Shown here piece by piece: positions 23,851 through 37,865 of a DNA stretch of 64,000 nucleotides. The notes under the pieces are model-generated. The model saw nothing but the letters and a program-made list of their open reading frames with translations, did no database searches and was not told the DNA's origin. Origin of the DNA: Ensifer oleiphilus. Lineage in GTDB: Bacteria; Pseudomonadota; Alphaproteobacteria; Rhizobiales; Rhizobiaceae. Both the position numbers and the translations under genes were made by a program. Numbering within the stretch: the stretch's first letter is position 1; the number at the start of each line of letters is the position of its first letter. The stretch covers positions 1,054,001 through 1,118,000 of the forward strand of contig NZ_JABWDU010000003.1 in assembly GCF_013371465.1 (NCBI RefSeq), written 5' to 3'.

Positions 23851-25092
23851 TCAGGAGAACGTCAATGCGCGGTCGCCATCGGCATCCTTGATGCGGGTCG
23901 GAAGCCCGATCCGGTTGAGGATGTCGAGGAACGGACGCGGCGGCAGCTCCTCGACGTTGACCATCTGCTTCACATCCCACTCGCCCGATGCAATCAGCAT
24001 CGCGGCGGCAACCGGCGGAACGCCGGCGGTGTAGGAAATGCCCTGTGACCCCACTTCTTCGAAGGCTTCCTTATGATCGGCCACGTTGTAGATGAAGACT
24101 TCGCGCTCAACGCCATCCTTCATGCCCTTCACGAAGTCGCCGATGCAGGTCTTGCCCTGATAGTTCGGTGCCAGCGACGACGGATCCGGCAGCACGGCCT
24201 TCACCACCTTCAGCGGCACGACCTCGAGCCCTTCGGCCGTCTTTACCGGCTGCTCGGACAGGAGGCCCAGGTTCTTCAAGACGGTGAAGACATTGATGTA
24301 GTGATCGCCAAAGCCCATCCAGAAGCGCACGTCGGCGCCGTCCATATGCTTTGCCAGCGAATGAACCTCGTCGTGGCCGGTCATGTAGGCCTTGCATTTG
24401 CCGACCACGGGCAGGTCATATTCCTTGCCGACCTCGAACATCGAATTGGTCTGCCACTGGCCGTTCTGCCAGGAATAGACAACGCCGGTAAATTCGCGGA
24501 AGTTGATTTCCGGGTCGAAGTTGGTGGCGAAGTACTTGCCGTGGCTGCCGGCATTGATGTCGACGATATCGACGGCGGTGACCTTGTCAAAATACTCATC
24601 CTTGGCGAGACGCGCATAGGCATTGACAACGCCCGGGTCGAAGCCGACGCCGAGGATGGCGGTGACGCCCTTTTCCTTGCATTCCTGCGCGCACTTCCAT
24701 TCGTAGTTTCCGTACCACGGCGGCGTTTCGCAGATCTTCTTCGGGTCTTCGTGGATCGCGGTGTCCATGTAGGCAGCACCGGTATCCATGCAGGCGCGCA
24801 GGACCGACATGTTGACGAAGGCGGACCCGACATTGATGACGATGCCGGCTTTGGTCTTTTCGATCAGCGCCTTGGTCGCCTCGACATCCATGGCGTCGAG
24901 CGCATGGGCTTCGAGCGTCACGTCGGTCTTCAGGCTCTTCTTTTCGCGGACCGAGGCGACGATCGCGCGGCACTTTTCGACCGTTCTGGATGCGATATGG
25001 ATGTCTCCCAGTACATCGCAGTTCTGTGCGCACTTGTGCGCCACGACCTGAGCCACGCCACCGGCGCCGATGATGAGAACGTTCTTTTTCAT
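23851..25092 (-). CDS. Carboxynorspermidine/carboxyspermidine dehydrogenase
   Basis: The 413-aa protein belongs to the saccharopine dehydrogenase-like family. It has a Rossmann N-terminus KKNVLIIGAGGVAQVVAHKC (2-21), GFDPGVVNAYARLA, and a long substrate domain. With the decarboxylase encoded 64 nt upstream it forms the alternative spermidine route: reductive condensation of aspartate semialdehyde with putrescine (or diaminopropane) using NADPH, then decarboxylation. Agrobacterium and other Rhizobiales use this pair instead of SpeD/SpeE. ATG 25092 is taken because it begins the Rossmann strand directly; the 68 upstream codons of open frame look like the shadow of the neighbour. Confidence 0.92.
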   Translation of the reverse strand: MKKNVLIIGAGGVAQVVAHKCAQNCDVLGDIHIASRTVEKCRAIVASVREKKSLKTDVTLEAHALDAMDVEATKALIEKTKAGIVINVGSAFVNMSVLRACMDTGAAYMDTAIHEDPKKICETPPWYGNYEWKCAQECKEKGVTAILGVGFDPGVVNAYARLAKDEYFDKVTAVDIVDINAGSHGKYFATNFDPEINFREFTGVVYSWQNGQWQTNSMFEVGKEYDLPVVGKCKAYMTGHDEVHSLAKHMDGADVRFWMGFGDHYINVFTVLKNLGLLSEQPVKTAEGLEVVPLKVVKAVLPDPSSLAPNYQGKTCIGDFVKGMKDGVEREVFIYNVADHKEAFEEVGSQGISYTAGVPPVAAAMLIASGEWDVKQMVNVEELPPRPFLDILNRIGLPTRIKDADGDRALTFS

Positions 25093-25156
25093 TTCGGGTG
25101 ATTTTTCCTTTTTCTCTGGGGTTAGAGGAGCCTGGGACAGGTTCCGTTTGACGAGC

Positions 25157-26254
25157 CTAGGAGAGGCTCTGTTCGTAGTCGGCGAAGGAAAATTCGCGGA
25201 CGAGCCTGACGTTGCCGTCAAGATCTCTGATGGCGATCGATGGCATGCCGACGCCGTTGAACCAGTTCTTCTTGACCATGGTGTAGCCGGCCGCATCCTG
25301 GAACGAGACGCGGTCGCCGACCTTCAACGGTTCGGAAAAGCGGAACTCGCCGAAGATATCGCCGGCGAGGCACGACTTGCCGCAGACCATGATGCTGTGC
25401 GGTCCAGCATTCGGCTCGACCTTGGCACTTTCGCGGTAGATCAAGAGGTCGAGCATGTGCGCTTCGATCGAGCTGTCGACGATGGCGAGATCCTTGCCGT
25501 TGTTGAGCGTATCGAGAACGGTGGTCTCAAGCGTCGTGCTGCGGGTGATCGCGGCTTCGCCGGGCTCCAGATAGACCTGAACGCCATGACGGCCGGAAAA
25601 CGCCTTCAGGCGCTCGCAGAAGGCATCGACCGGATAATCGTCGCCGGTGAAATGAATACCGCCGCCAAGGCTGATCCACTCGGCACGCGAAAGCAGGGTG
25701 CCGAACTTTTCCTCGATCTCCGACAGCATCCGGTCGAACAGGTCGAAATCCCTGTTTTCGCAGTTGTTGTGGATCATGAAGCCGCTGATGCGGTCCATCG
25801 CAGTTTCGATCTGCGCCGCATCCCATTCGCCGAGCCGGCTGAAGGGGCGGGCAGGGTCGGCGAGGTCGAAACTGGACGAGCTCATTCCGGGATTGAGACG
25901 CAGGCCGCGGGCGATGCCGGATGCCTTGTCGGCGAAACGATCGAGTTGGCCGATCGAGTTGAAGATGATCTTGTCGGCGTGCCCGATCACCTCGTCGATT
26001 TCGTTGTCACCGTAGGCGACACTGTAGGCATGGGTTTCGCCGCCGAATTTCTCGCGCCCGAGCCGCACCTCGTAGAGTGAGGAGGACGTCGTGCCATCAA
26101 TGTATTCGCGCATCATGTCGAACACCGACCAGGTGGCGAAGCATTTGAGCGCGAGCAGTGCCTTGGCGCCCGATTTTTCGCGCACGTAGGCGATCTTCTC
26201 CATGTTGCGAAGCAGCTTTGCCTTGTCGATCAGGTAGTAGGGGGTCTGGATCAT
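25157..26254 (-). CDS. nspC: Carboxynorspermidine decarboxylase
   Basis: The 365-aa protein is a fold III (alanine-racemase-like) PLP decarboxylase. LLALKCFATW contains Lys37 for the Schiff base; HNNCENRDF, LGGGIHF and EPGEAAI follow the NspC pattern; CGKSCLAGDIFGEF near the C-terminus holds the catalytic Cys contributed across the dimer. It removes CO2 from carboxynorspermidine or carboxyspermidine. ATG 26254 (MIQTPYYLID) matches the family start and has AAGG upstream; ATG 26284 adds ten unlikely residues. It is upstream of the dehydrogenase on the same strand, so the two enzymes of the pathway are made together. Confidence 0.93.
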   Translation of the reverse strand: MIQTPYYLIDKAKLLRNMEKIAYVREKSGAKALLALKCFATWSVFDMMREYIDGTTSSSLYEVRLGREKFGGETHAYSVAYGDNEIDEVIGHADKIIFNSIGQLDRFADKASGIARGLRLNPGMSSSSFDLADPARPFSRLGEWDAAQIETAMDRISGFMIHNNCENRDFDLFDRMLSEIEEKFGTLLSRAEWISLGGGIHFTGDDYPVDAFCERLKAFSGRHGVQVYLEPGEAAITRSTTLETTVLDTLNNGKDLAIVDSSIEAHMLDLLIYRESAKVEPNAGPHSIMVCGKSCLAGDIFGEFRFSEPLKVGDRVSFQDAAGYTMVKKNWFNGVGMPSIAIRDLDGNVRLVREFSFADYEQSLS

Positions 26255-26315
26255 GATGTGCCTTGCGTCTTCAAAGTGTTTCAAATGTCGGGACTGCAGG
26301 TGGAGAGGCGGAGGG

Positions 26316-27758: not shown

Positions 27759-27793
27759 TTGCGGACTCGAATTCTCCGTGGTAACGTTCCCAC
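27759..27793 (+). promoter_or_regulatory. Promoter and operator 1 of the LacI-controlled operon
   Basis: GTGGTAACGTTCCCAC (27778-27793) is a palindrome with one mismatch and the central CG typical of LacI-family sites. It shares the core AACGTTCCC with the perfect operator at 28907-28926. A plausible promoter, TTGCGG (27759-27764), 17 nt, TAACGT (27782-27787), places the -10 box inside the operator. This fits autorepression of the regulator gene that starts at 27822. Confidence 0.6.
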
Positions 27794-27821: not shown

Positions 27822-28868
27822 ATGCAGCGGAGGCGGCCGACGATCATCGACGTCGCGCGCAAGGCAGGGGTGTCCAAGAGCACCGCCGGCCGGGCACTCT
27901 CCGGCGCGTCCAATGTTACGGACGAGGCGCGTGAGCGTGTGCTTGAGGCTGCCCGTGCCGTCGGCTATGAGCGCAACGATCTCGCCGTCGGCATGCGCTC
28001 AGGGCGCACCGGCCTGCTTGGCCTTGTCATTCCCGATATCACCAACCCGTTCTGGGCCGAGGTCGCGCGTGGCGCGCAGGACCGCGCGGCTGAAAACGGG
28101 GCCTCTCTCCTGGTGTTTTCCTCGGATTGGGATCATGGCCGCGAGGCCAGCCACCTGCGGGCGCTGCGGCAGGCGAGGGTCGATGGTGCCATCATCAATC
28201 CGGTCGCCGACAGCTTCGATGACCTCGACAGGTTCGGACTGCCTTTCGTGCTGATCGGCTCGAGTGCGGAACGGTTCCCGGCCAATTCTTCCGTCGGTTC
28301 CGATATCGCCCAGGCGGTCAGACTTGGCATGGACCATCTGGTGTCCAAGGGGCATCACGCGCCAGCCCTTATCCTCGGGCCGAAGTCGCGCATCGCACGG
28401 GCCCGGTTTCTGCGGACCTTCCACGAGCATTGCGTCGAGCGCGACATCGACCCGGCGGCGCTGCCGATGGAAGACGGCGAATACACCGTTGAAGGCGGGC
28501 GCACGGCGATGATGCGGCTCCTTCAGCGCGACCGGGTCGGCCACCTCGCGGTCTTTGCCGCCAACGATCTGATGGCGCTCGGCGCCATGGTTGCCGTGCG
28601 TGAAGCCGGGCTTCGATGCCCGGAGGATGTATCGATCCTCGGTTTCGACGGCATTCCCGCCGGCGCATTTTCCTGGCCGGGACTGACGACAGTCGCCAAG
28701 CCCGGGCGCGAAATCGGCGTGCGCGCCGTCGACTGCCTGTTCGATGAAATCGCCGGCCGGCCCGAACATGGGCGGGTGTTCATGCCATGCCGGCTGATCG
28801 AGCGAGGCTCATTGGCTGATGTGTCGCTCGACCAGCCCAGACGCGCAGCAAGCTCCGGGAGGGGGTAA
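27822..28868 (+). CDS. LacI family transcriptional regulator
   Basis: The 348-aa protein begins with a LacI HTH and hinge (PTIIDVARKAGVSKSTAGRAL, with VTDEARERVLEAARAVGYERN) and continues as a periplasmic-binding-protein-like sensor: LGLVIPDITNPFWAEVARGA, VFAANDLMALGAMVAVREAG, ILGFDGIPAGAFSWPGLTTV. It should repress until a sugar-like ligand binds. ATG 27822 has GGGAGGG upstream and starts the HTH directly; the 42 upstream codons of open frame run through the operator and are not coding. It lies directly before the ABC/ADP-ribosylglycohydrolase operon, and two matching palindromes flank it. Confidence 0.92.
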   Translation: MQRRRPTIIDVARKAGVSKSTAGRALSGASNVTDEARERVLEAARAVGYERNDLAVGMRSGRTGLLGLVIPDITNPFWAEVARGAQDRAAENGASLLVFSSDWDHGREASHLRALRQARVDGAIINPVADSFDDLDRFGLPFVLIGSSAERFPANSSVGSDIAQAVRLGMDHLVSKGHHAPALILGPKSRIARARFLRTFHEHCVERDIDPAALPMEDGEYTVEGGRTAMMRLLQRDRVGHLAVFAANDLMALGAMVAVREAGLRCPEDVSILGFDGIPAGAFSWPGLTTVAKPGREIGVRAVDCLFDEIAGRPEHGRVFMPCRLIERGSLADVSLDQPRRAASSGRG

Positions 28869-28871
28869 GCA

Positions 28872-29849
28872 ATGACCAATCGTGACGAGGCGGTGATGTC
28901 GCCTAAATTTGGGAACGTTCCCAAATCGAGTGCGGGCCGCAGGCAGGGACGCATGGCCGTCGCCGCCGATGGCTGGCGGCGCTGGTGGCCCTATTACGTC
29001 ATGATGGCGCCGGGCATCCTGTTCTTCCTCGTCTTCCATTATCTGCCGATCTGGGAGGCGCGCATCGCCTTCGAGCAGGTACGCATCGTGCCGCCCAACA
29101 TCTGGGTGGGCATCAAGCATTTCCAGGTGCTGTTCTCCTCGCCGGTGTTCTGGCAGGTGCTCGCCAACACGCTGATCATCTCGGCCATGAAGATGGTGTT
29201 CTTCCTACCGGTGCCGATCATCGTCGCGCTGTTGTTGAACGAGGTTCGCGGTGGGTCGCTGCGCAAGTTCATCCAGTCGGCGATCTACCTGCCGCATTTC
29301 CTGTCCTGGGTGGTGATCGCCGGTATCTTCATTGCAGCGCTGTCGCCGACCGACGGCGCCGTCAACAATCTCATGGGCATGGCCGGCATGGCGCCACGGT
29401 CGTTCATGACCGATACCGGCGCGATCCGCTGGGTACTGGTCTTTACCGAAATCTGGCGTTCGGCCGGCTGGGACAGCCTGCTCTATCTTGCAGCCATCAT
29501 CGCCATCGACCAGCAGCTCTATGATGCCGCCGAGATCGACGGCGCCAACCGCTGGCAGAAGATCAGGCACGTCACGCTGCCGGGCATCGTGCCGACCATT
29601 GCGACGCTGTTCATCCTCAATGCCGGCATGTTCCTCAACGCCGACCTTAACCAGGTGATCAACCTCTCCAACGACGTGGTGCGCAGCAAGATCGATATCG
29701 TCGATACCTATGTCTACCGCATCGGGCTCCAGACCGGCGAATACTCGCTGGCAACGGCCGCCGGCCTTTTCAAGGCGGTGCTCGGCACGATGATGATCGT
29801 GATCGCCCATTTCGTTTCCAAGCGTCTGACCGGAAAGGGAGTCTGGTAA
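28872..29849 (+). CDS. ABC permease, LplB type (first permease of the novel operon)
   Basis: The 325-aa protein has six hydrophobic segments starting with WPYYVMMAPGILFFLVFHYLP. The EAA loop is YDAAEIDGANRWQKIRHVTLP. The N-terminal WPYYxMMxPGxxFFxxFxYxP pattern and overall layout are those of LplB permeases of polysaccharide-type ABC importers. Two starts are possible: 28872, with GGGAGGGGG upstream, used in mRNA reading through from the regulator gene; and 28953, with AGGCAGGGA upstream, used if transcription starts at the operator at 28907-28926. It overlaps the next permease gene as TAATG. Confidence 0.88.
   Translation: MTNRDEAVMSPKFGNVPKSSAGRRQGRMAVAADGWRRWWPYYVMMAPGILFFLVFHYLPIWEARIAFEQVRIVPPNIWVGIKHFQVLFSSPVFWQVLANTLIISAMKMVFFLPVPIIVALLLNEVRGGSLRKFIQSAIYLPHFLSWVVIAGIFIAALSPTDGAVNNLMGMAGMAPRSFMTDTGAIRWVLVFTEIWRSAGWDSLLYLAAIIAIDQQLYDAAEIDGANRWQKIRHVTLPGIVPTIATLFILNAGMFLNADLNQVINLSNDVVRSKIDIVDTYVYRIGLQTGEYSLATAAGLFKAVLGTMMIVIAHFVSKRLTGKGVW
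28907..28926. promoter_or_regulatory. Operator 2: perfect 20-bp LacI-type palindrome
   Basis: TTTGGGAACGTTCCCAAA is an exact 18-bp palindrome, extended by one further A/T pair to 20 bp. It has the central CG of LacI sites and the same core as operator 1. TAAATT at 28904-28909 could be a -10 box at its left edge. It overlaps the first codons of the longest permease frame, so transcripts from this promoter would use ATG 28953. Confidence 0.7.
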
Positions 29850-30745
29850 TGGCCCTGTCGCGCAAGACCCCGATCGAACGCATCGAATATGCGATCATCG
29901 TCTCGACGCTGCTGCTGCTCGTCGTCGTCACGGTCCAGCCGATCCTCAACCTGCTCGCCGTCTCGCTCTCCGAGCCGGCAAAGGTGCCGGGCATGAGCGG
30001 GCTGACCATCATCCCCCGAGGGTTCTCCTTCGAGGTCTGGAGTGTTCTGCTTCAGCACCCCAATGTGCAGCGCGGCATCTTCAACTCCATTTTCATCACC
30101 GCCGTCAGCACCGTGATCGGCGTCGTCGGCACGGCACTGATGGCCTGGGGACTTTCCAGGCCCGGCCTGCCGGGGCGAAAGGCGCTCTTCATCCTCGTTC
30201 TCGTCACCATCGTGTTCGAGCCGGGCATCATCCCCGACTATTTCGTCAACAAGCGCTTAGGTCTGCTCGACAGCTACTGGTCGGTGATCCTCTTCAAGGC
30301 GGTCAATGCCTGGTACCTGATCATCCTCATCCGCTTCTTCGAAGAGATCCCGAAGGAACTGCTGGAAGCCGCCGAACTCGATGGCGCCAACCCGTTCCAG
30401 GTTTTCTGGCACCTGGTTCTGCCGCTCGCCAAGCCGGCGCTTGCGACCATCTCGCTGTTCTATCTCGTCTTTCACTGGAACGAGTTCTTCCGCGCGATGA
30501 TCTATCTGAACGACCAGGGCAAATGGCCGTTGCAGGTGGTGCTGCGCCAGTTCGTCATCGATGGAGACAAGGTCGCCATCGTCGGCGCCAACAACGCCAG
30601 CAACAACACAGGCGCCAGCCAGATCGATCTGCGGTCGCTGAAAGCCGGCATGATCCTGCTCACCATCGTGCCGATCCTGGCGATCTATCCGCTGATCCTC
30701 AAATTCTTCACCAAGGGAACCATGAGCGGCGCGCTCAAGGGGTGA
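29849..30745 (+). CDS. ABC permease, YtcP/LplC type (second permease)
   Basis: The 298-aa protein has six membrane helices. ASLS-like VSLSEPAKV after helix 1, LFxLVLVTIVFEPGIIPDYF, and the EAA loop LLEAAELDGANPFQVFWHLVLP are typical of the LplC/YtcP carbohydrate permease group, which pairs with LplB. The ATG shares its A with the preceding stop codon (TAATG). With the binding protein (30792) and the ATPase (35599) it would form one complete importer. Confidence 0.9.
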   Translation: MALSRKTPIERIEYAIIVSTLLLLVVVTVQPILNLLAVSLSEPAKVPGMSGLTIIPRGFSFEVWSVLLQHPNVQRGIFNSIFITAVSTVIGVVGTALMAWGLSRPGLPGRKALFILVLVTIVFEPGIIPDYFVNKRLGLLDSYWSVILFKAVNAWYLIILIRFFEEIPKELLEAAELDGANPFQVFWHLVLPLAKPALATISLFYLVFHWNEFFRAMIYLNDQGKWPLQVVLRQFVIDGDKVAIVGANNASNNTGASQIDLRSLKAGMILLTIVPILAIYPLILKFFTKGTMSGALKG

Positions 30746-30791
30746 CGAGACACGTTCCAACAAAGAAGCCTATCAAAACGGAGGAGACGAA

Positions 30792-32216
30792 ATGCTTAGA
30801 AAAATGGTCCTGCTGGCCTCGACTGCCCTGGCGCTCAGCCTTGGTGCGGCCGCCCCGACAATGGCCGAACCGGTCAAGATCCGGGTGGTGTCCAAGGACT
30901 TCACGCCGTCCAACCCCGACGACGTCAAGCACCTGCAGCGCATTGAGGACGCGCTTCGGGCGCAGGGCACCGATCTCGACATCGAACTCGTCGACCTGCC
31001 GTCTTCCGGCTATGCCGACAAGCTGTCTGTCATGCTGCTCTCGGGAGACATCCCGGACCTGATCTATTTCCAGGGCGGCGACGCCAAGATGGTCGAGCAG
31101 GGCGTGCTCGAGGATCTCGGCCCGATGCTGGCCGACACCAAGTACCTGAAAGACGCGCTGTGGCCGCACAATGTCGAGCGCCTGAAGAACTATCCCTATC
31201 TGCTCTACGTCTATCCGGTGCGCGGGCCGCAGCCGGTGATCCGCAAGGACTGGCTGGAAAAGACCGGCCTCAAGGCGCCTGAAACCGTCGAAGACTATGT
31301 CACCCTGTTCAAGGCGATCAAGGACGGTGACCTCGACGGCAACGGCGTCGCCGACAGCTATGGCGTGACCACGGCTGACAACACCAACGAGCTCGATTCC
31401 ATCTTCAACCAGGCCTTCGGCATCACCGGCACCTGGATGAAGAATGCAGGCGGCGAGTGGGTGCATGCGCGCATCACGAGCCAGGAGAAAGACAAGATCG
31501 CCTTCTACGCATCGCTGCGTGAGCAGGGGCTCTATGATCCCGAGTACATCACCACCAAGTTCGACGTGAAGGAAGACAAGTTCTACACCGGCCGGGCCGG
31601 CGTGATCTTCGGCTCCTCCGGCGAGGTCATCGACATCTATGGCGGCAAGATGCGCCAGGTTCATCCGGGCACCGAGCTCGTGCTTCTGGCGCCGCCGAAG
31701 GGACCGGGTGGCCAGGGCCTCGCCGCCGTCGACGTCTCGAAGGAATCGCGCGGCTTTGCGATCTCCTCCGTCTCGGAGCACAAGGCCGAAGTGATGAAGC
31801 TGCTCGACTTCATGGCAAGCCCGGAAGGCCAGATGTTCGATCGACTCGGCTTCGAGGGCCAGGAATACACCAAGGACGGCGACGCTTATAAGGTCACCGA
31901 CAAGATCGCCACCTGGTACGCCCGCTTCATGGTCGCGGCCAACTGGACCCCGCCAGTCGTCTGGCAGTCGGAAGCGGCCCAGCAGTCGCTGGCGACGATC
32001 CAGAAGGACTTCAAGCCGGACAACACCTTCGTCTGGCCGGCCGACTACGCCGCCGATCTCGACGCCACCGAAAACGTCTACCGGTCCTGGGTCTACAAGT
32101 TCATCTCCGGCGCCGCCAAGATGGATCAGTGGGACCAGTATGTCGCGGAGTGGGAAGCGGCTGGCGGAAAACGTCTCAACGAGTATGCAAGGACTGTTCT
32201 CGATGCAGAAAAGTAG
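30792..32216 (+). CDS. Extracellular solute-binding protein, LplA type
   Basis: The 474-aa protein has a signal peptide (MLRKMVLLASTALALSLGAA, cleavage near MAEP at about 25) without a lipobox. GDIPDLIYFQGGDAKMVEQGVLEDL and DWLEKTGLKAPETVEDY are standard for LplA/AlgQ-like binding proteins. The loop DGDLDGNGVADSYG resembles the EF-hand-like calcium site of alginate-binding AlgQ proteins. Size and family suggest an oligosaccharide or decorated sugar as ligand. GGAGGAG lies before the start, and it follows the permease gene by 46 nt. Confidence 0.9.
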   Translation: MLRKMVLLASTALALSLGAAAPTMAEPVKIRVVSKDFTPSNPDDVKHLQRIEDALRAQGTDLDIELVDLPSSGYADKLSVMLLSGDIPDLIYFQGGDAKMVEQGVLEDLGPMLADTKYLKDALWPHNVERLKNYPYLLYVYPVRGPQPVIRKDWLEKTGLKAPETVEDYVTLFKAIKDGDLDGNGVADSYGVTTADNTNELDSIFNQAFGITGTWMKNAGGEWVHARITSQEKDKIAFYASLREQGLYDPEYITTKFDVKEDKFYTGRAGVIFGSSGEVIDIYGGKMRQVHPGTELVLLAPPKGPGGQGLAAVDVSKESRGFAISSVSEHKAEVMKLLDFMASPEGQMFDRLGFEGQEYTKDGDAYKVTDKIATWYARFMVAANWTPPVVWQSEAAQQSLATIQKDFKPDNTFVWPADYAADLDATENVYRSWVYKFISGAAKMDQWDQYVAEWEAAGGKRLNEYARTVLDAEK

Positions 32217-33387
32217 CGTTCAAGGGCTCTCCCTCAAAGGGAGGGTCCGCGCGCTCATCCATGGCGTCGCACTCGGCGACGCCATGGGGGCGCCGGTCGA
32301 AAAATTGCCGGCCGCCGAAATCGCGCAGCGATATGGCCGTGTGAAGTCGCTGGACACCGAGTGGCACAAGATGTCGCTCGATGCGACCGCCCGCAACGGC
32401 CGGGTGCGCGGCAACGGCATCGTCACCGACGATACGCTGATGACGCTCTGCCTGATGGATATCTATGGCGAGGTCGGCCGGCATCTCGATGCCTGGGACA
32501 TGGCAGATGGCATGGTCCGGCAGATCGCCTGGGTGCCGCGCTACGTGCCGGAGCTGCAGCGCGAAGCGATGCTGATCGAGCGGCTGTTCTATCCGGAAAA
32601 ATGGATCTTCCAGCGCCATCAGTTGACCTCGTGCGATCCGCGCCAGGGTGGCATCGGCAACATGGTCAATTGCGGTGCCGCGATGTATGTGGCGCCGATC
32701 GGCGTCGTCAACGCATGCGATCCGAAGGCCGCCTATGACGAGGCTATCGCGTTCGCTTCGGGCCATCAGGAAAGCTTCGGGCTTGAAGCGGCCGGCGTGT
32801 TTGCCGCCGCGGTTGCCGCGGCCTTCGTGCCCGGCACAGATATCGAAGGCGTGATCGAGGCCGTTCTGGCGCTTGCCAAGGACGGCACGCGCAACGCCAT
32901 TGCCGACATCGCTGAAATCGCGCGCACACTGAAGGCGCAAGGTGCCGACCACGCAACGGTCGTTGCAGCCTTCCATGCCGCGATCGCGCCCTATTCTCCC
33001 ATGGGCGACGACGTCAACCACACACCCGCCAAGGCCGGTCGCCTGACGGCTGCCTATCAGCCAAGCCGCCTCGGCTCGATCGAAGAACTGCCGCTGGCGC
33101 TCGGTTTCTGCCTGTTCAACGACGGAGATTTCCGCCGCTCGATCGAGGACGGCATCAATTCCGGTCGAGATACCGACTCCATCGGCGTCATGGCCGGTGC
33201 GATCCTCGGTGCGATGCACGGCGAAGGCGTCATCGACGCCGCCGACCACGCGCTGCTCGACCGCGCCAACAGGCTCGACCTTACCGCTTCGGCCGACCGC
33301 TTTACCGAAGTGGTAACGACCATGCTTGCCGCCGACCAGGCGGCGGCCGACCGGCGGACCAGCTTCCGCGCCGCCCTCACATTCTGA
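32203..33387 (+). CDS. ADP-ribosylglycohydrolase-family enzyme 1
   Basis: The 394-aa protein has the DraG/ARH fold signatures: GVALGDAMGAPVE (22-34) near the N-terminus, GIVTDDTLMTL (73-83) with the TDD metal-ligand motif, and INSGRDTDSIGVMAGAI towards the C-terminus with the D-T-D motif binding the second metal. Known members remove ADP-ribose from Arg, Asn-type or Ser side chains, or act on ribosides, with two Mg/Mn ions. No signal peptide is present. ATG 32203 overlaps the binding-protein gene by 14 nt; ATG 32185 or 32140 are alternatives. Placement in a sugar-importer operon argues for an imported N- or O-glycoside as substrate rather than a modified protein. Confidence 0.88.
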   Translation: MQKSSVQGLSLKGRVRALIHGVALGDAMGAPVEKLPAAEIAQRYGRVKSLDTEWHKMSLDATARNGRVRGNGIVTDDTLMTLCLMDIYGEVGRHLDAWDMADGMVRQIAWVPRYVPELQREAMLIERLFYPEKWIFQRHQLTSCDPRQGGIGNMVNCGAAMYVAPIGVVNACDPKAAYDEAIAFASGHQESFGLEAAGVFAAAVAAAFVPGTDIEGVIEAVLALAKDGTRNAIADIAEIARTLKAQGADHATVVAAFHAAIAPYSPMGDDVNHTPAKAGRLTAAYQPSRLGSIEELPLALGFCLFNDGDFRRSIEDGINSGRDTDSIGVMAGAILGAMHGEGVIDAADHALLDRANRLDLTASADRFTEVVTTMLAADQAAADRRTSFRAALTF

Positions 33388-33404
33388 TCGATAACGAAAG
33401 ACGC

Positions 33405-35513
33405 ATGATGCCCAAGCTCAGCAAAGAGACGATTTACGAGAAGATCTATGCCGGTTTCATCGGCAAGGCCATTGGCGTTCGCCTGGGCGCCCCGGTCGAA
33501 CCGACGATCTGGAGCTATGAGCGCGTCCAGAAAACCTATGGCGAAGTCACCCAGTATCTGCGCGATTTCAAGAACTTCGCCGCTGACGACGACACCAACG
33601 GCCCGGTCTATTTCATCCGAGCGCTGCGCGACTATGGCCTGACGGCGAGTGCTGCCGATGTCGGCAAGACCTGGGTGAACTATGCCGCCGAAGAGCATGG
33701 CATGTACTGGTGGGGCGGCTTCGGCGTTTCGACCGAGCACACCGCCTATCGCAACCTGCGTGCCGGCATTCCCGCACCGCAGTCCGGATCGATCGCCCAG
33801 AACGGCGCGACGGTCGCCGAACAGATCGGCGGGCAGATCTTCATCGACAGCTGGGGCTGGGTGCATCCGGGCGAGCCGCAGAAGGCAGCCGATGCTTCGG
33901 CTCGCGCCGCAAGCGTTGCCCATGACGGCGACGGCCTGAACGGCGCGCGCTTCTGCGCTGCCGCCATCGCTAGGGCTTTCGAGGCGACCTCGATCGCCGA
34001 GGTGATCGCCGCCGCCATGGCGACCATCGATGCGAAATCGACGTACGCCCGCGTGGCGCAGGCGGTGATCGATTTCCACAAGGCTAATCCCGGCAACTGG
34101 CGCGCCTGCCGCGACATGCTGACGGCCGATTGGGGCTATGACCGCTATCCCGGCGTCTGCCACATCATTCCGAATGCCGGCGTCACCGTCATGGCGATCC
34201 TCTACGGCGAAGGCGATCTGCCGCGCACTGCCGAGATCGCCACCATGGCCGGCTGGGACACCGACTGCAACGCCGGCAATGCCGGAGCGATCGTCGGCAC
34301 CTTCCAGGGGCTTCAGCCGGGCTGGGACAAGTACAGAAAGCCGATCAACGACTTCATCGTCGCCTCCGGCGTCGTCGGCTCGATCAATATCGTCGACATC
34401 CCGTCCTTTGCCCGGGAACTGACGGTGCTGGCGCTGCAGCTGCGCGGTGACGACGTGCCGGCGCTCTGGCTGGAAGACTTCACCCGCCGTGGCGTCCGCT
34501 TCGATTTCGACCTGCCCGGTTCGACCCACGGCTTCCGCACCGAAGGCTTCAACCAGATCAGCCTCAAGGGCTCGACCGACAAACAGGCCGAAGGTTCGCG
34601 CGGCTCGCTCGAGATCCAGCTCGACCGGCTCGAGCGTGGCCAGGGCGGACGCATCTTCTGGAAGCCCTTCTATCGTCGCTCCGATTTCGACGACGAGCGC
34701 TACCGCCCGATGTTCTCGCCGCTGGTCGATGCCGGCCAGACGGTGTCGTTCAAGCTGTGGCTCGATCCGTGGAATGGCGACGGCAACCTGCGCGTTGCTC
34801 CCTATATCCGCAGGGCCATGTCCGGCACGATCGAGGAAACCGGCGCGTGGCAGGTGCCCAACCATGAGGGTTGGCAGGACTACGAATTCACCGTGCCGGA
34901 AGGCGCCGAAGCGATCGACGAGATCGGTATTCAGGTCGAATATTTCGGTCGTCTGAAATTTCTCGGCCGCCTGTTCCTCGCCGATTTCAAGGTCGAGGGC
35001 GCGGGTCACACCGTCATCGATCCCAAGGGCGAAGTGCAGGAATGGGGCGCGATCTCGCGCTTTACCTGGAACCGCGGTCACTGGACGCTGCAGGATGGGC
35101 GCATCCATGCGCATACGGCCAATGACGCCGACATGTGGACGGGCCATTATTACGCCCGCGATGTCAAAGTCCTGGCGGATGTCAAGCCGCTCGCGGGCCC
35201 TTCGCAGCTGGTTACGGCCCGCGTGCAAGGCACCAGCCGGTTCTATGCCGCAGGCTTCGATGGCGACGAGGTCGTGATCCTCAAGGAGGATTTCGGCACC
35301 ACGGTTCTTGCGCGTGCCCCGTTCAAGCGCGAGCTTGGCAAGAGCTACGGCTTCGCGTTCACCCTCAAGGGCGATTCATTGTCCTTCGCGATCGACGGCA
35401 AGCCGCTGATCGAAGCGCGGGACGACCAGTTCGTTTATGGCATGGCCGGGCTTCGCCTCGGCGCGCTTGGTCGCATGAGCGTTGGAACCATCGAGATTGT
35501 CGAGGCCGCCTGA
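33405..35513 (+). CDS. ADP-ribosylglycohydrolase-family enzyme 2 with C-terminal beta-sandwich
   Basis: The 702-aa protein has an ARH-fold part (about 1-345) and a beta-rich C-terminal part (about 360-702) resembling carbohydrate-binding or concanavalin-like sandwiches (LEIQLDRLERGQGGRIFWKPFY; a second unit near 565-700 with FTWNRGHWTLQDGRI and SFAIDGKPL). The TDD-like motif is AADDDTNGPVYF (59-70) and the late motif is AGWDTDCNAGNAGAIVG. In the first motif the Asp of GDxxGxPxE is replaced: GFIGKAIGVRLGAPVE. It follows enzyme 1 by 17 nt, and ATG 33408 is an equally good start. It is not a duplicate of enzyme 1; probably it acts on a related or sequential substrate. Confidence 0.85.
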   Translation: MMPKLSKETIYEKIYAGFIGKAIGVRLGAPVEPTIWSYERVQKTYGEVTQYLRDFKNFAADDDTNGPVYFIRALRDYGLTASAADVGKTWVNYAAEEHGMYWWGGFGVSTEHTAYRNLRAGIPAPQSGSIAQNGATVAEQIGGQIFIDSWGWVHPGEPQKAADASARAASVAHDGDGLNGARFCAAAIARAFEATSIAEVIAAAMATIDAKSTYARVAQAVIDFHKANPGNWRACRDMLTADWGYDRYPGVCHIIPNAGVTVMAILYGEGDLPRTAEIATMAGWDTDCNAGNAGAIVGTFQGLQPGWDKYRKPINDFIVASGVVGSINIVDIPSFARELTVLALQLRGDDVPALWLEDFTRRGVRFDFDLPGSTHGFRTEGFNQISLKGSTDKQAEGSRGSLEIQLDRLERGQGGRIFWKPFYRRSDFDDERYRPMFSPLVDAGQTVSFKLWLDPWNGDGNLRVAPYIRRAMSGTIEETGAWQVPNHEGWQDYEFTVPEGAEAIDEIGIQVEYFGRLKFLGRLFLADFKVEGAGHTVIDPKGEVQEWGAISRFTWNRGHWTLQDGRIHAHTANDADMWTGHYYARDVKVLADVKPLAGPSQLVTARVQGTSRFYAAGFDGDEVVILKEDFGTTVLARAPFKRELGKSYGFAFTLKGDSLSFAIDGKPLIEARDDQFVYGMAGLRLGALGRMSVGTIEIVEAA

Positions 35514-35526
35514 TCGGTCTTGATTC

Positions 35527-35557
35527 CCCCGCCGGTCCGTGAAACGGGCCGGCGGGG
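35527..35557 (+). other. Intercistronic G/C hairpin
   Basis: CCCCGCCGGTCCG (35527-35539) pairs with CGGGCCGGCGGGG (35545-35557) over 13 bp with one G.U pair and a 5-nt loop. No T run follows. It lies in the 85-nt gap between the second glycohydrolase gene and the ATPase gene, and may protect the upstream message or lower expression of the downstream genes. Confidence 0.6.
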
Positions 35558-35598
35558 AGCCAGGAACCGCATCGGCGTATCAAGTGGGAGGAGAAACC

Positions 35599-36654
35599 AT
35601 GTCCGAGATCGAACTCAGGAACGTGGGCAAGAGCTACGGCAGTATGTCGGTGCTCGACGATATTTCGCTCGACATGGGCAGCGGCGAATTCGTCGTCCTC
35701 GTCGGCCCGTCCGGCTGCGGTAAGTCGACGCTCTTGCGCATGATCGCCGGGCTCGAAGACATCAGCGCCGGCGAGATTACCATCGGCGGCCGCATCGTCA
35801 ACGACATGCCGGCCAAGGAACGTGACCTTGCTATGGTGTTCCAGAGCTATGCGCTCTATCCGCACATGAAGGTCGCCGACAATATGAGCTTCGCGCTGAA
35901 GCTTGCCGGCGTGTCGAAGAGCGAAATCAAGCGTCGTGTCGATGAAGCAGCCGACATCCTCGGGCTGGGACATCTGCTCGAACGGCTACCGCGCGAACTG
36001 TCGGGCGGACAGCGCCAGCGCGTGGCGATGGGTCGCGCCATCGTGCGCGATCCGCGCGCCTTCCTCTTCGACGAGCCGCTTTCCAACCTCGACGCCAAGC
36101 TTCGGGTGAAGATGCGCGGCGAGATCAAGAAGCTGCATCAGCGCCTTGGCAAGACGACGATCTACGTCACCCACGACCAGACGGAAGCCATGACCATGGC
36201 CGACAAGATCGTCGTCCTGAACGGCGGAAAGATCGAGCAGATGGGGCCGCCGCTCGACCTCTATAAAAACCCGCAGAACCTGTTCGTTGCCAGCTTCATC
36301 GGCTCGCCCGAAATCAACCTTTTGCGCGGCGAAGTGGACGGTCAGACGCTGCGGCTTGCCGATGGCGCCCGGCTGCCGTTGCCTGAAGGTCATGGGCTCG
36401 CTTCGGGGCGCAAGATCGTCTACGGCATCCGCCCGCAGCATATCCACCTTGCCGACAGCGGCATTGCTGCCGAGGTGATGCTGGTCGAGCCGACAGGGGA
36501 CGCGCAGGAAGTGATGCTTCGGATCGGAGTCACCGACGTCACCATGGTCCTTGGAGAAAGCGCCCTTCTGCAGTCGGGCGCGAAGGTGACAATCGGCTTC
36601 GACACGGCCAATGTGTTGCTGTTCGACGAGAAGACGGGCGGGCGCATCCAATGA
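35599..36654 (+). CDS. ABC transporter ATPase (UgpC/MsmK type)
   Basis: The 351-aa protein shows Walker A GPSGCGKS (about 38-45), Q-loop [12 protein letters not shown], signature [15 protein letters not shown], Walker [14 protein letters not shown] and [10 protein letters not shown], followed by a TOBE domain with GIRPQHIHL. This is a carbohydrate-importer ATPase that would serve the two LplB/YtcP permeases. ATG 35599 has GGGAGGAG immediately upstream; the 20 upstream codons of open frame overlap the hairpin and are unlikely to be coding. Its stop overlaps the next start as ATGA. Confidence 0.92.
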
Positions 36655-37865
36655 GCGATTTCGCCAGAAAGCACTGGGATCCCGATGCCGAAGGGCCGCT
36701 GGATGGGATCAAGGTGCTTGACCTGTCGCGTCTGGTTGCCGGCAACATGCTGTCGCTGCAGCTGGCCGATTTCGGCGCCGACGTCATCAAGATCGAGCCG
36801 CCGGCGGGCGATCCCCTGCGTGAGTGGAAGGACGAAGGCCTGTCGCTGTTCTGGAAGACCTATGGGCGCAACAAGCGCTCGGTGGTCCTCAACCTGCGCG
36901 AGGATGCCGATCGCGAGGCGCTCTGGGCGCTGATTGCGACGGCCGACGTCTTCATCGAGAATTTCCGCCCGGGAACGCTGGAGAAGATGGGCTTCGGACC
37001 GGACGCGCTTATGGCACGCAATCCAGACCTCGTGGTGGTCCGCGTGTCCGGCTTCGGCCAGACCGGGCCATACGCTGAATTTCCAGGCTTCGGCACCATC
37101 GTCGAAGGCATGAGCGGCTACGCTTATCGTACCGGGTTTCCCGATCGCGAGCCGGTGCTGCCTCCACTCGCGCTTGCCGACATGATCGCCGGCGTCTACG
37201 GCATGTCGGCGACGATGACGGCGCTGTTTGCGCGCGAGAAGGGCCGGGCGCGCGGACAGGTCATCGACCTGTCGCTGCTGGAGCCGATCTTCTCGGTGCT
37301 CGGTCCCGAGGCCGCTATCTACGCGCTCAACGGAACCGTTAAGGAGCGTATCGGCAGCGCCTCGAATACCGCCTGCCCGCGCAACGTTTATCGCTGCGCC
37401 GACGGCAAATACGTGGCGCTCTCAGGTTCGACGCCGGCTGTCGCAAGGCGGATCTTCGAGATCATCGGCCGCGCCGACATGAACGACGATCCGCGCTTCC
37501 GCTCCAACAGCGAGCGCCTCAAGCACCGCGATCTCGTCGACGAGGCGATCGGCGCCTGGTTTGCCGTCCGCTCCCACGATGAAGCCCTTGCCACCATGCG
37601 TGACAGTGGCGCTACGGTCGGGCCGATCTATAACATTGCCGACGCGACCGAGGACGCGCATTTTTCCGAGCGCGAGGTAATCGTATCGCTCGACGATGCA
37701 GAGCACGGAACGTTGCCCATGCACAACATCGTGCCGCGCCTGTCCGCAACGCCGGGGCGCTTCCGGCGGCCGGCGCCGGCGCTCGGGGAACACACAGCCG
37801 AGGTGCTGGCGGAGATCGGGCTCTCTCCAGCGACGGTCGCTGCGATCACGGATGCCGGTGGGTAA
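36651..37865 (+). CDS. Class III CoA-transferase (CaiB/BaiF family)
   Basis: The 404-aa protein has family III features: [20 protein letters not shown] (19-38), [44 protein letters not shown], and [14 protein letters not shown] with Asp177, the residue expected to form the aspartyl-CoA anhydride (as Asp169 in formyl-CoA transferase). It moves CoA between carboxylic acids. It overlaps the ATPase gene by 4 nt, so it belongs to the operon. Its presence implies that the imported compound contains or yields a carboxylic acid that must be activated as a thioester (inference). Confidence 0.9.

Follow-up and report, generated by a model that had tools for sequence, protein, structure and literature searches.

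An eight-gene operon of Ensifer oleiphilus, found within a window of 64,000 nucleotides (the whole stretch of DNA that was analyzed), rather probably serves the substrate-induced catabolism of an imported glycoside composed of a furanose and a 2-substituted malate, by means of ADP-ribosylglycohydrolase (ARH)-fold glycosidases, a class III CoA-transferase, and CitE. We infer the activities, the substrate, and the induction from gene content, conservation, operators, folds, module exclusivity, and module swaps, all of which were obtained by computation. The sugar would most likely be ribose and the acid most likely (S)-citramalate, and the ABC importer would take up the intact conjugate. The glycosidic bond or bonds would then be cut by ARH1 and by ARH2, the latter a putative metal-dependent glycosidase of the ARH fold that carries a sugar-binding-type domain, and the freed sugar would be phosphorylated by ribokinase, whose gene lies in the locus itself in part of the non-alphaproteobacterial loci and elsewhere in the window genome. 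The class III CoA-transferase would activate the acid, which a CitE-type lyase would cleave into acetyl-CoA and a 2-oxoacid, that is, pyruvate if the acid is citramalate. LacI, sitting on two operators, would repress the operon until it binds the substrate or a product. Elsewhere among bacteria, the acid might instead be handled by citrate-lyase-type CitDEF, by an ADP-forming CoA ligase with CitE, or by AtuA (DUF1446) with DUF4387.

The gene order had been proposed in a sequence-only reading of this DNA, and it was confirmed here: all eight genes, spanning 27822–37865, lie on the plus strand with open frames, and the families called from Pfam and NCBIfam profile searches agree, comprising LacI, two ABC permeases, a binding protein, two ARH-fold proteins, a UgpC-type ATPase, and a class III CoA-transferase. 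The names LplB, YtcP, and LplA given in that reading hold as far as the permease and binding-protein families are concerned, while the searches themselves return only binding-protein-dependent permease and SBP_bac_1. The combination of SBP_bac_1, two BPD_transp_1 proteins, and an ATPase with a TOBE/OB domain makes the importer one of the carbohydrate-uptake ABC type with a MalK/UgpC ATPase. For the first permease, ATG 28953 is the most likely start instead of 28872, because with the latter start the operator at 28907–28926 would fall inside the gene. The UgpC-type ATPase probably starts at ATG 35599, not at GTG 35539, because the relative L012 uses the same start (MSEIELR...), and ARH1 probably starts at ATG 32203. 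The CoA-transferase matches CoA_transf_3 with 396 bits (cut-off, 23.3; E 1.7e-118) and stays below all NCBIfam equivalog cut-offs, i.e., those for succinate-glutarate, mesaconate, oxalate, and carnitine (at best 259 versus 750 bits). It shares 59–94% identity with 21 other alphaproteobacterial ARH-operon copies and 42–43% with two Sporosarcina copies. A promoter scan gave one site versus 2.2 expected, which is not above chance, and terminator-like sites showed a weak excess (12 versus 7.1, sd 3.2).

Table 1. Genes and operators of the ARH operon in the E. oleiphilus window.
Feature	Position	Strand	Profile or remark
Operator O1, GGTAACGTTCCC, inside CGTGGTAACGTTCCCACG	27780..27791	+	upstream of lacI
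LacI-family repressor, 348 aa	27822..28868	+	PF00356+PF13377
Operator O2, perfect 20-bp palindrome ATTTGGGAACGTTCCCAAAT	28907..28926	.	between lacI and importer genes
LplB-type ABC permease	28953..29849	+	BPD_transp_1; start shifted from 28872
YtcP-type ABC permease	29849..30745	+	BPD_transp_1
LplA-type extracellular solute-binding protein, 474 aa	30792..32216	+	SBP_bac_1
ARH1, ADP-ribosylglycohydrolase-fold hydrolase, 394 aa	32203..33387	+	ADP_ribosyl_GH
ARH2, 702 aa	33405..35513	+	ADP_ribosyl_GH + beta domains
UgpC/MalK-type ABC ATPase	35599..36654	+	NF008653 over cut-off; start shifted from 35539
Class III (CaiB/BaiF) CoA-transferase, 404 aa	36651..37865	+	CoA_transf_3

The operators that had been noticed earlier are two, and both are conserved in position. 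Among the 27 alphaproteobacterial loci examined (L044–L046, L050–L071, L087, and the window), a GGNAACGTTNCC site lies between lacI and the importer genes in all 27 and also at the lacI start in 26, L046 being without it. At the O2 position, the site reads GGGAACGTTCCC in 25 loci, including the window, where it begins at 28911 and forms the center of the palindrome; it is GGTAACGTTCCC in L044 and GGGAACGTTACC in L045. With one mismatch at most allowed, the pattern has three matches in the window versus 2.0 expected, and genome-wide it occurs at seven places versus eight for the reversed control. The pattern alone is weak evidence, and the operators are called because of their conserved position, not because of pattern frequency. 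Another exact copy of the O1 motif is located at G000:C11:239723.

Co-occurrence across genomes, which the sequence-only reading had named as a check, was observed: the gene order is conserved, both ARH genes are present in 16 of 16 genomes of the genus with the window genome included, and the gene set is found again in Alphaproteobacteria, Bacilli, Clostridia, Halanaerobiales, and Spirochaetes. Among 81 loci, i.e., the window and the best-scoring 80 of 542 relatives, which are a best-scoring set of related loci rather than a random sample, importer genes (at least two of three) occur in 74, a second ARH in 70, and a ribokinase-type (PfkB) gene in 34, all of the latter belonging to the 57 non-alphaproteobacterial loci. 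These presence counts lean on clustering because the neighborhood HMMs, among which there was no CoA-ligase model, were built from the same loci that they label. Five representative PfkB proteins all have ribokinase TIGR02152 as their best match, three of them over the cut-off. The 24 alphaproteobacterial loci of this set lack a PfkB gene; Agrobacterium L044, which is outside the 81, has one, and the window genome encodes a single ribokinase that passes the TIGR02152 cut-off, on a contig other than that of the operon. The plasmid-collection records read were nine of 17 with methylaspartate ammonia-lyase, six of 44 with DUF4387, and six of 33 with ARH2. The gene set is widely conserved and apparently unstudied, and the titles and excerpts of the literature matches listed contain no report of such a catabolic pathway for ARH proteins.

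A module fit to split a citramalate- or citrate-type acid is present in 66 of the 81 loci, as AtuA and/or DUF4387 (33 loci), as a CoA-transferase mostly with CitE (24), as the CitF type (eight), or as CitE alone (one), and two kinds never occur together (0 of 81 loci); in two further loci, an ADP-forming CoA ligase and CitE make up the acid module. The earlier proposals of a catabolic glycosidase role for the ARH proteins, acting on an imported glycoside, and of a subsequent activation of a carboxylic acid thus gain comparative support, the ribokinase-type genes being consistent with a riboside and the modules with the acid. On the ARH2 tree, the module kind changes at least five times, as exemplified by Sporosarcina L101 and L104, which carry a CoA-transferase and CitE and are nested in an AtuA clade, and by L072 (CitDEF), which is sister to L086 (AtuA). 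Among the 15 module-free loci, five lie on contigs under 8 kb and seven belong to a deep ARH2 clade, with one being both. In the 75 loci of at least 10 kb, the second ARH and the module are both present in 63, both absent in seven, and discordant in three and two; the link was not significant in a phylogenetic pair test with only four independent tree pairs. The window operon itself has neither CitE nor ribokinase, and CitE is also absent from L050, L051, L067, and L068. The nearest CitE in the window genome is about 180 kb off beside an IclR-type regulator and is 42–61% identical to 19 alphaproteobacterial operon copies among the matches listed; examination of its neighborhood found no link to the operon.

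The three module kinds of the ARH loci also alternate in methylaspartate clusters, at the slot where (S)-citramalate is cleaved. Of 20 clostridial methylaspartate loci, fetched from 23 genomes over the TIGR01502 cut-off, 13 have CitDEF, five AtuA+DUF4387, none both, and two neither, while nine annotated records comprise three with AtuA+DUF4387 (Escherichia coli, Salmonella, and Prevotella), one with CitDEF, three with CoA-transferase+CitE, and two with none. Moreover, 1080 of 5426 complete E. coli genomes encode AtuA/DUF1446 and DUF4387 alongside methylaspartate ammonia-lyase. In HMM searches of ORFs of at least 90 aa, the 81 ARH loci gave no match for fumarase, methylaspartate ammonia-lyase, or glutamate mutase, and therefore the shared modules were not carried over with that pathway; a search of the window genome also found no methylaspartate ammonia-lyase. 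By analogy, AtuA+DUF4387 would act as a lyase of the citramalate type without a CoA-activating partner, and the module swaps make this pair the obvious candidate for such an enzyme. The excerpt of PMC4682846 reports no citramalate lyase activity in E. coli with high citrate lyase, isocitrate lyase, or methylcitrate-pathway activity, calls the fate of (S)-citramalate unclear, and mentions, downstream of mal, a DUF1446 gene whose function is unknown. DUF4387 is mentioned in no paper found by our literature search. A role of AtuA+DUF4387 as mesaconase was considered and rejected: the pair and class I fumarase stand together in the clusters of E. coli, Salmonella, and Prevotella; in the five clostridial clusters, this fumarase is not labeled near the pair but is encoded elsewhere in five of five genomes, and the lack of the three pathway genes in the ARH loci bears on this role as well.

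The acid might instead be citrate, 3-hydroxy-3-methylglutarate, or 2-isopropylmalate, with the pathway otherwise the same, which is possible though doubtful. It is conceivable because the CoA-transferases of ARH operons and methylaspartate clusters are only about 26–31% identical among the matches listed, and because CitF and CitE of L072 are nearer to E. coli K-12 citrate lyase (59% and 56% identity) than to the methylaspartate copies (54% and 49%) among those matches. The use of the same module kinds where citramalate is cleaved argues against it, as does the finding that, among the matches listed, five of the eight ARH-locus CitF copies match the methylaspartate copies with higher scores than they do E. 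coli CitF; L084 and L112 are within 3 bits, and L072 scores clearly higher against E. coli.

It seems rather unlikely that the operon handles two substrates, with the importer, ARH proteins, and ribokinase serving a neutral riboside and the acid module an acid of the same habitat, such as a plant exudate. The deep ARH2 clade (L122–L126, L128, L129; L177–L184, L186) has importer and/or ribokinase genes and no labeled acid module, as would be expected for separate substrates, but the module tracks the high-scoring ARH2 clade, accompanying 25 of 25 such genes in Paenibacillaceae, and no acid transporter of its own was noticed in the operons. In 104 genomes of this family, a set built around the genome that carries L073, itself among the 80 loci, and possibly overlapping with those loci in further species, DUF4387 lies within 8 kb of 23 of the 25 high-scoring ARH2 genes, the two exceptions having CitE and an ADP-forming CoA ligase, and near none of the 14 lower-scoring ones, for which nine loci covering 10 of the 14 genes were fetched.

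ARH1 and ARH2 belong to the PF03747 superfamily by profile match (ADP_ribosyl_GH; E 1.4e-40 and 9.3e-48) and by ARH fold (predicted models with pLDDT 90.8 and 93.6, respectively); no other PF03747 match occurs anywhere in the genome. ARH1 keeps T75-D76-D77 and D323-x-D325, with D76, D77, D323, and D325 in 24 of 24 aligned ARH1 rows, and ARH2 keeps D61-D62-D63 and D285-T-D287, with all five aspartates in 47 of 47 ARH2 rows; we take these loop aspartates to be metal ligands. The earlier call of two ARH-fold hydrolases is therefore right in family, but ARH2 is not a bare ARH fold, since its ARH domain (residues about 1–350) is followed by ~340 residues of beta domains. Residues about 361–540 form a beta-sandwich in the model, for which Foldseek ranks a CBM22 tandem first (E 2.5e-8), with poor superposition (TM-score by target, 0.35–0.37; rmsd, 11–17). 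Residues about 550–700 match CBM66 of Bacillus subtilis levanase (profile E 2e-9) and the solved CBM66 fold (TM-score by target, 0.73–0.81), and on profile and model this C-terminal module is a predicted CBM66-like, sugar-binding-type domain. This domain, the module swaps, and the citramalate link are additions to the sequence-only reading.

The ARH fold with its metal-loop aspartates, the adjoining ribokinase, and the ARH, permease, and ribokinase-type groupings described in excerpts of the literature would also suit an operon that salvages ADP-ribose, poly(ADP-ribose) fragments, or nucleosides, in which ARH releases ribose for ribokinase and the acid genes are unrelated passengers. We regard such salvage as quite improbable, given the interchangeable acid module in 66 of 81 loci, the alteration of the DG..MR loop of the ARHx group (NCGAAMY in ARH1 and NG...AEQ in ARH2), and the finding of no base-salvage gene among the neighbors searched by family. 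A DraG-like role, in which importer or enzyme activity is regulated through the stripping of ADP-ribose from proteins by ARH1 and ARH2, has in its favor that DraG TIGR02662 is the only NCBIfam match of ARH1, although far below its cut-off (49.1 versus 337 bits) and without a match in ARH2. This role is highly improbable, because ARH2 bears a sugar-binding-type domain and because 70 of 81 loci have two ARHs per operon. It is the acid modules and this domain that place both salvage and protein-level regulation low in our ranking.

Returning to the glycoside pathway, we tentatively suggest, with less confidence than for the operon itself, that ribosyl-citramalate or closely related compounds make up a new and widely distributed class of sugar-acid conjugates, occurring in soil, plant, and gut habitats and eaten via ARH-fold glycosidases, a new catabolic role for the fold, and that AtuA/DUF1446+DUF4387 is the missing citramalate lyase, needing neither CoA transfer nor a carrier protein. 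A literature search for citramalate with ribofuranose found no ribosyl-citramalate conjugate by title. If the proposal is true, a fold known for ADP-ribose removal enters carbohydrate catabolism, an unrecognized environmental sugar-acid conjugate is indicated, and AtuA+DUF4387 fills the citramalate lyase gap stated in the excerpt of PMC4682846.

Among known systems, DraG, ARH3, and MJ1187 (PF03747) have the fold and two aspartate-bearing loops in common with ARH1 and ARH2, which differ from them in their low identity (12–21% in fold matches), altered loop, importer-operon setting, and, in ARH2, extra beta domains, one of which is CBM66-like. In E. coli yegTUV and the staphylococcal ARH-permease-ribokinase triplet, an ARH gene lies beside genes for a permease and a ribokinase or putative sugar kinase, but these systems have one ARH and other permease types, and the excerpts describing them mention no acid-cleaving module and leave the function unknown or undiscussed (PMC10819704, PMC3637587). 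Methylaspartate clusters (glutamate mutase, methylaspartate ammonia-lyase, mesaconase, and citramalate lyase) use the same three interchangeable modules for their last step and, unlike the ARH loci, involve no ARH or sugar importer. LplABC/YtcP-type oligosaccharide importer operons share the transporter architecture and LacI control of the Ensifer operon, whose hydrolases, in contrast, are ARH-fold proteins and to which an acid module is attached.

The eight genes that the sequence-only reading had placed in one operon were all found, on the same strand and in the order it gave, and family searches returned the gene classes it had named. The two ADP-ribosylglycohydrolase-fold proteins of the operon, ARH1 and ARH2, are the only matches to PF03747 in the whole 6.76-Mb genome. 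Two operators flank lacI, and the position of O2 implies a start at 28953 for the first permease. Of the 27 alphaproteobacterial loci examined, all have a GGNAACGTTNCC site at the O2 position and 26 have one at the O1 position as well. The operator pattern is not enriched genome-wide, occurring at 7 places as against 8 for the reversed control; the case for the operators is made by conserved position. One more exact copy of O1 lies elsewhere in the genome (C11:239723). Upstream of the operon, on the minus strand (23851-26284), ORFs resembling carboxynorspermidine (saccharopine-type) dehydrogenase and carboxynorspermidine decarboxylase were recognized by eye.

LacI-type operators flanking lacI, in window positions
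Operator	Position	Description
O1	27780	GGTAACGTTCCC, LacI-type
O2	28907-28926	perfect 20-bp palindrome ATTTGGGAACGTTCCCAAAT, LacI-type

The gene set is real, conserved, and functionally coherent. In a survey of the window's genome together with 100 relatives (101 in all), ARH2 was found in 22 and ARH1 in 19, and within the genus both were present in 16 of 16 genomes. An ARH2 alignment scanned against a collection of species-level genomes found at least 542 relatives, the best 80 of which belong, by record titles, to Alphaproteobacteria, Bacilli, Clostridia, Halanaerobiales, and Spirochaetes. The neighborhoods of these 80 and of the window's operon (81 loci) were labeled with HMMs made from called and clustered ORFs: two or more importer genes out of three were labeled in 74 loci and a second ARH, of ARH1 type or of the shorter ARHx type, in 70. 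A PfkB kinase gene occurs in 34 loci, which are 34 of the 57 non-alphaproteobacterial and none of the 24 alphaproteobacterial ones; ribokinase (TIGR02152) was the best match of all five representatives, three of them above the cut-off. The window genome has one ribokinase above this cut-off, on a contig other than the window's. A ribokinase occupies the place of the CoA-transferase in Agrobacterium L044 and accompanies the importer and two ARHs in Deinococcus L047. LacI-PfkB fusions of ~640-650 aa were seen in or near ARH operons (L077:1683-3632, L106:1974-3887, L122:8023-9975, and L125:3427-5349). Firmicutes loci L101, L106, and L116 have a HAD-type hydrolase within or directly after the ARH operon; those of L101 and L106, both searched, match PF08282, and that of L116 was recognized by eye. 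A divergent ARH2 (~33-36% identity) of other Rhizobiaceae (L021, L022, L023, and L048) has a UgpC-type ATPase after it, with ARH1 not adjoining. In Enterobacter hormaechei L049:8945-13404, a full-length ARH2-type protein is encoded together with LacI and a solute-binding protein, flanked by chitoporin and glutamine-tRNA ligase genes.

The models of ARH1 and ARH2 are of high confidence (pLDDT 90.8 and 93.6, respectively) and match the folds of DraG, MJ1187, and ARH3. T75-D76-D77 and D323/D325 are invariant in 24 of 24 ARH1 sequences, as are D61-D62-D63 and D285/D287 in 47 of 47 ARH2 sequences. The DG..MR loop of the ARHx group, which in known ARHs holds the ADP-ribose pyrophosphate, is replaced by NCGAAMY in ARH1 and NG...AEQ in ARH2, and this alteration suggests that they bind another ligand. 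After its ARH domain, ARH2 has a beta-sandwich, whose top fold match is a CBM22 tandem with a TM-score by target of only 0.35-0.37, and then a CBM66-like module with a TM-score of 0.73-0.81. The CBM66 of levanase binds fructofuranose ends, and the module would be in keeping with a furanoside substrate.

An acid module, by which we mean genes proposed to split a citramalate- or citrate-type acid, is present in 66 of the 81 loci and absent from 15. AtuA (DUF1446; PF07287) and/or DUF4387 (PF14330) occur in 33 loci, with both in 31; class III CoA-transferase in 24, with CitE (PF03328) in 21; CitF (PF04223) in eight, with CitE in seven; and CitE alone in L108, a short contig also showing CitD. No locus has two kinds of module. 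The CitF of L127 is above the TIGR01584 cut-off, and a CitD-type carrier, matching PF06857 in four cases, is found in eight loci, every one of the CitF or CitE-alone kind. On the ARH2 tree (FastTree) the minimum number of module changes is 5, where the least possible is 2 and the shuffled mean 26.1; the module label is clustered, as relatedness predicts, yet has been repeatedly swapped. Among the 75 loci of at least 10 kb, a second ARH and a module are both present in 63, both absent in seven, and discordant in three and two, a co-occurrence to which the tree gives no independent support. The window operon has the CoA-transferase and lacks CitE; a CitE paralogue on the same contig (C26:904086-904736; L173:7078-7926), adjoining an IclR-type regulator recognized by eye, shares 42-61% identity with the CitE proteins encoded in the operons of 19 other Alphaproteobacteria and is the closest to ARH-operon CitE among the tested HpcH_HpaI proteins of the genome.

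Of 104 Paenibacillaceae genomes, 29 have DUF4387 (30 genes in all) and 36 have ARH2 at E 1e-60 or better. DUF4387 lies within 8 kb of 23 of the 25 ARH2 genes scoring at least 1158 bits, which, given the relatedness of the genomes, are not 25 independent events. The other two (L175 and L176) both have CitE and a 707-715-aa protein adjoining a PfkB gene. Family searches with the L176 protein identified it as an ADP-forming CoA ligase (PF13549, PF13607, and CoA_binding), and the L175 protein has a similar start. DUF4387 was near none of the 14 lower-scoring ARH2 genes, and no acid module was labeled in the nine loci fetched from this group. Conversely, 24 of the 30 DUF4387 genes adjoin an ARH2, one of these being broken.

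These genes probably compose a pathway, predicted as follows. The substrate would first be imported and then hydrolyzed by ARH2 and ARH1; ribose would pass to ribokinase and the acid to CoA-transferase and CitE. From the operators, we infer that LacI would be released by the substrate or a product.

The acid modules recur in methylaspartate clusters. AtuA and DUF4387 sit between methylaspartate ammonia-lyase and class I fumarase in the glutamate-mutase clusters of Escherichia coli, Salmonella, and Prevotella, and, of the 5426 complete E. coli genomes, 1080 carry the mal-AtuA-DUF4387 block. According to PMC4682846, the last step of this pathway converts (S)-citramalate into acetate and pyruvate, it was unclear what becomes of citramalate in E. 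coli, and a DUF1446 gene of unknown function lies downstream of mal. The other three DUF4387 records read are not in such clusters. In Klebsiella L140 the gene is accompanied by dehydrogenases and a fumarate hydratase, and in Variovorax L142 by an RraA-type gene and a gene for a tricarboxylate-type transporter protein; on a Halomarina plasmid (L144) the two module kinds lie on opposite strands, each close to amidohydrolase and isochorismatase genes. A ~310-350-aa protein follows DUF4387 in methylaspartate clusters L141, L162, L164, L165, L166, and L168; the copies from L162, L164, and L165/L166 carry a Walker-A-like GDAGAGKS near residue 50, and that of L165 has no match in Pfam. CitDEF is the module in 13 of the 20 Clostridia loci that contain methylaspartate ammonia-lyase; five have AtuA and DUF4387 (AtuA being identical in two), none has both, and two, L155 and L167 on short contigs, have neither. 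CitDEF also occurs in the Peptoclostridium cluster, and CoA-transferase with CitE in those of Gemmobacter, Ensifer adhaerens, and Rhizobium sullae; two of nine methylaspartate ammonia-lyase records read (L148 and L171) have neither a module nor glutamate mutase.

No methylaspartate-pathway genes were found in the ARH loci. The ARH-operon CoA-transferases share ~26-31% identity with their counterparts in methylaspartate clusters, and the CitF of L072 is 59% identical to E. coli K-12 citrate lyase as against 54% to the methylaspartate copies. Sequence similarity thus fails to single out citramalate, and the claim is therefore kept to a 2-substituted malate, most likely citramalate, a reading to which we give roughly an even chance; the assignment of AtuA and DUF4387 as a citramalate-type lyase is likewise a prediction. 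The three kinds of module thus substitute for one another both in the ARH loci and in the methylaspartate clusters, the latter being a citramalate-producing context.
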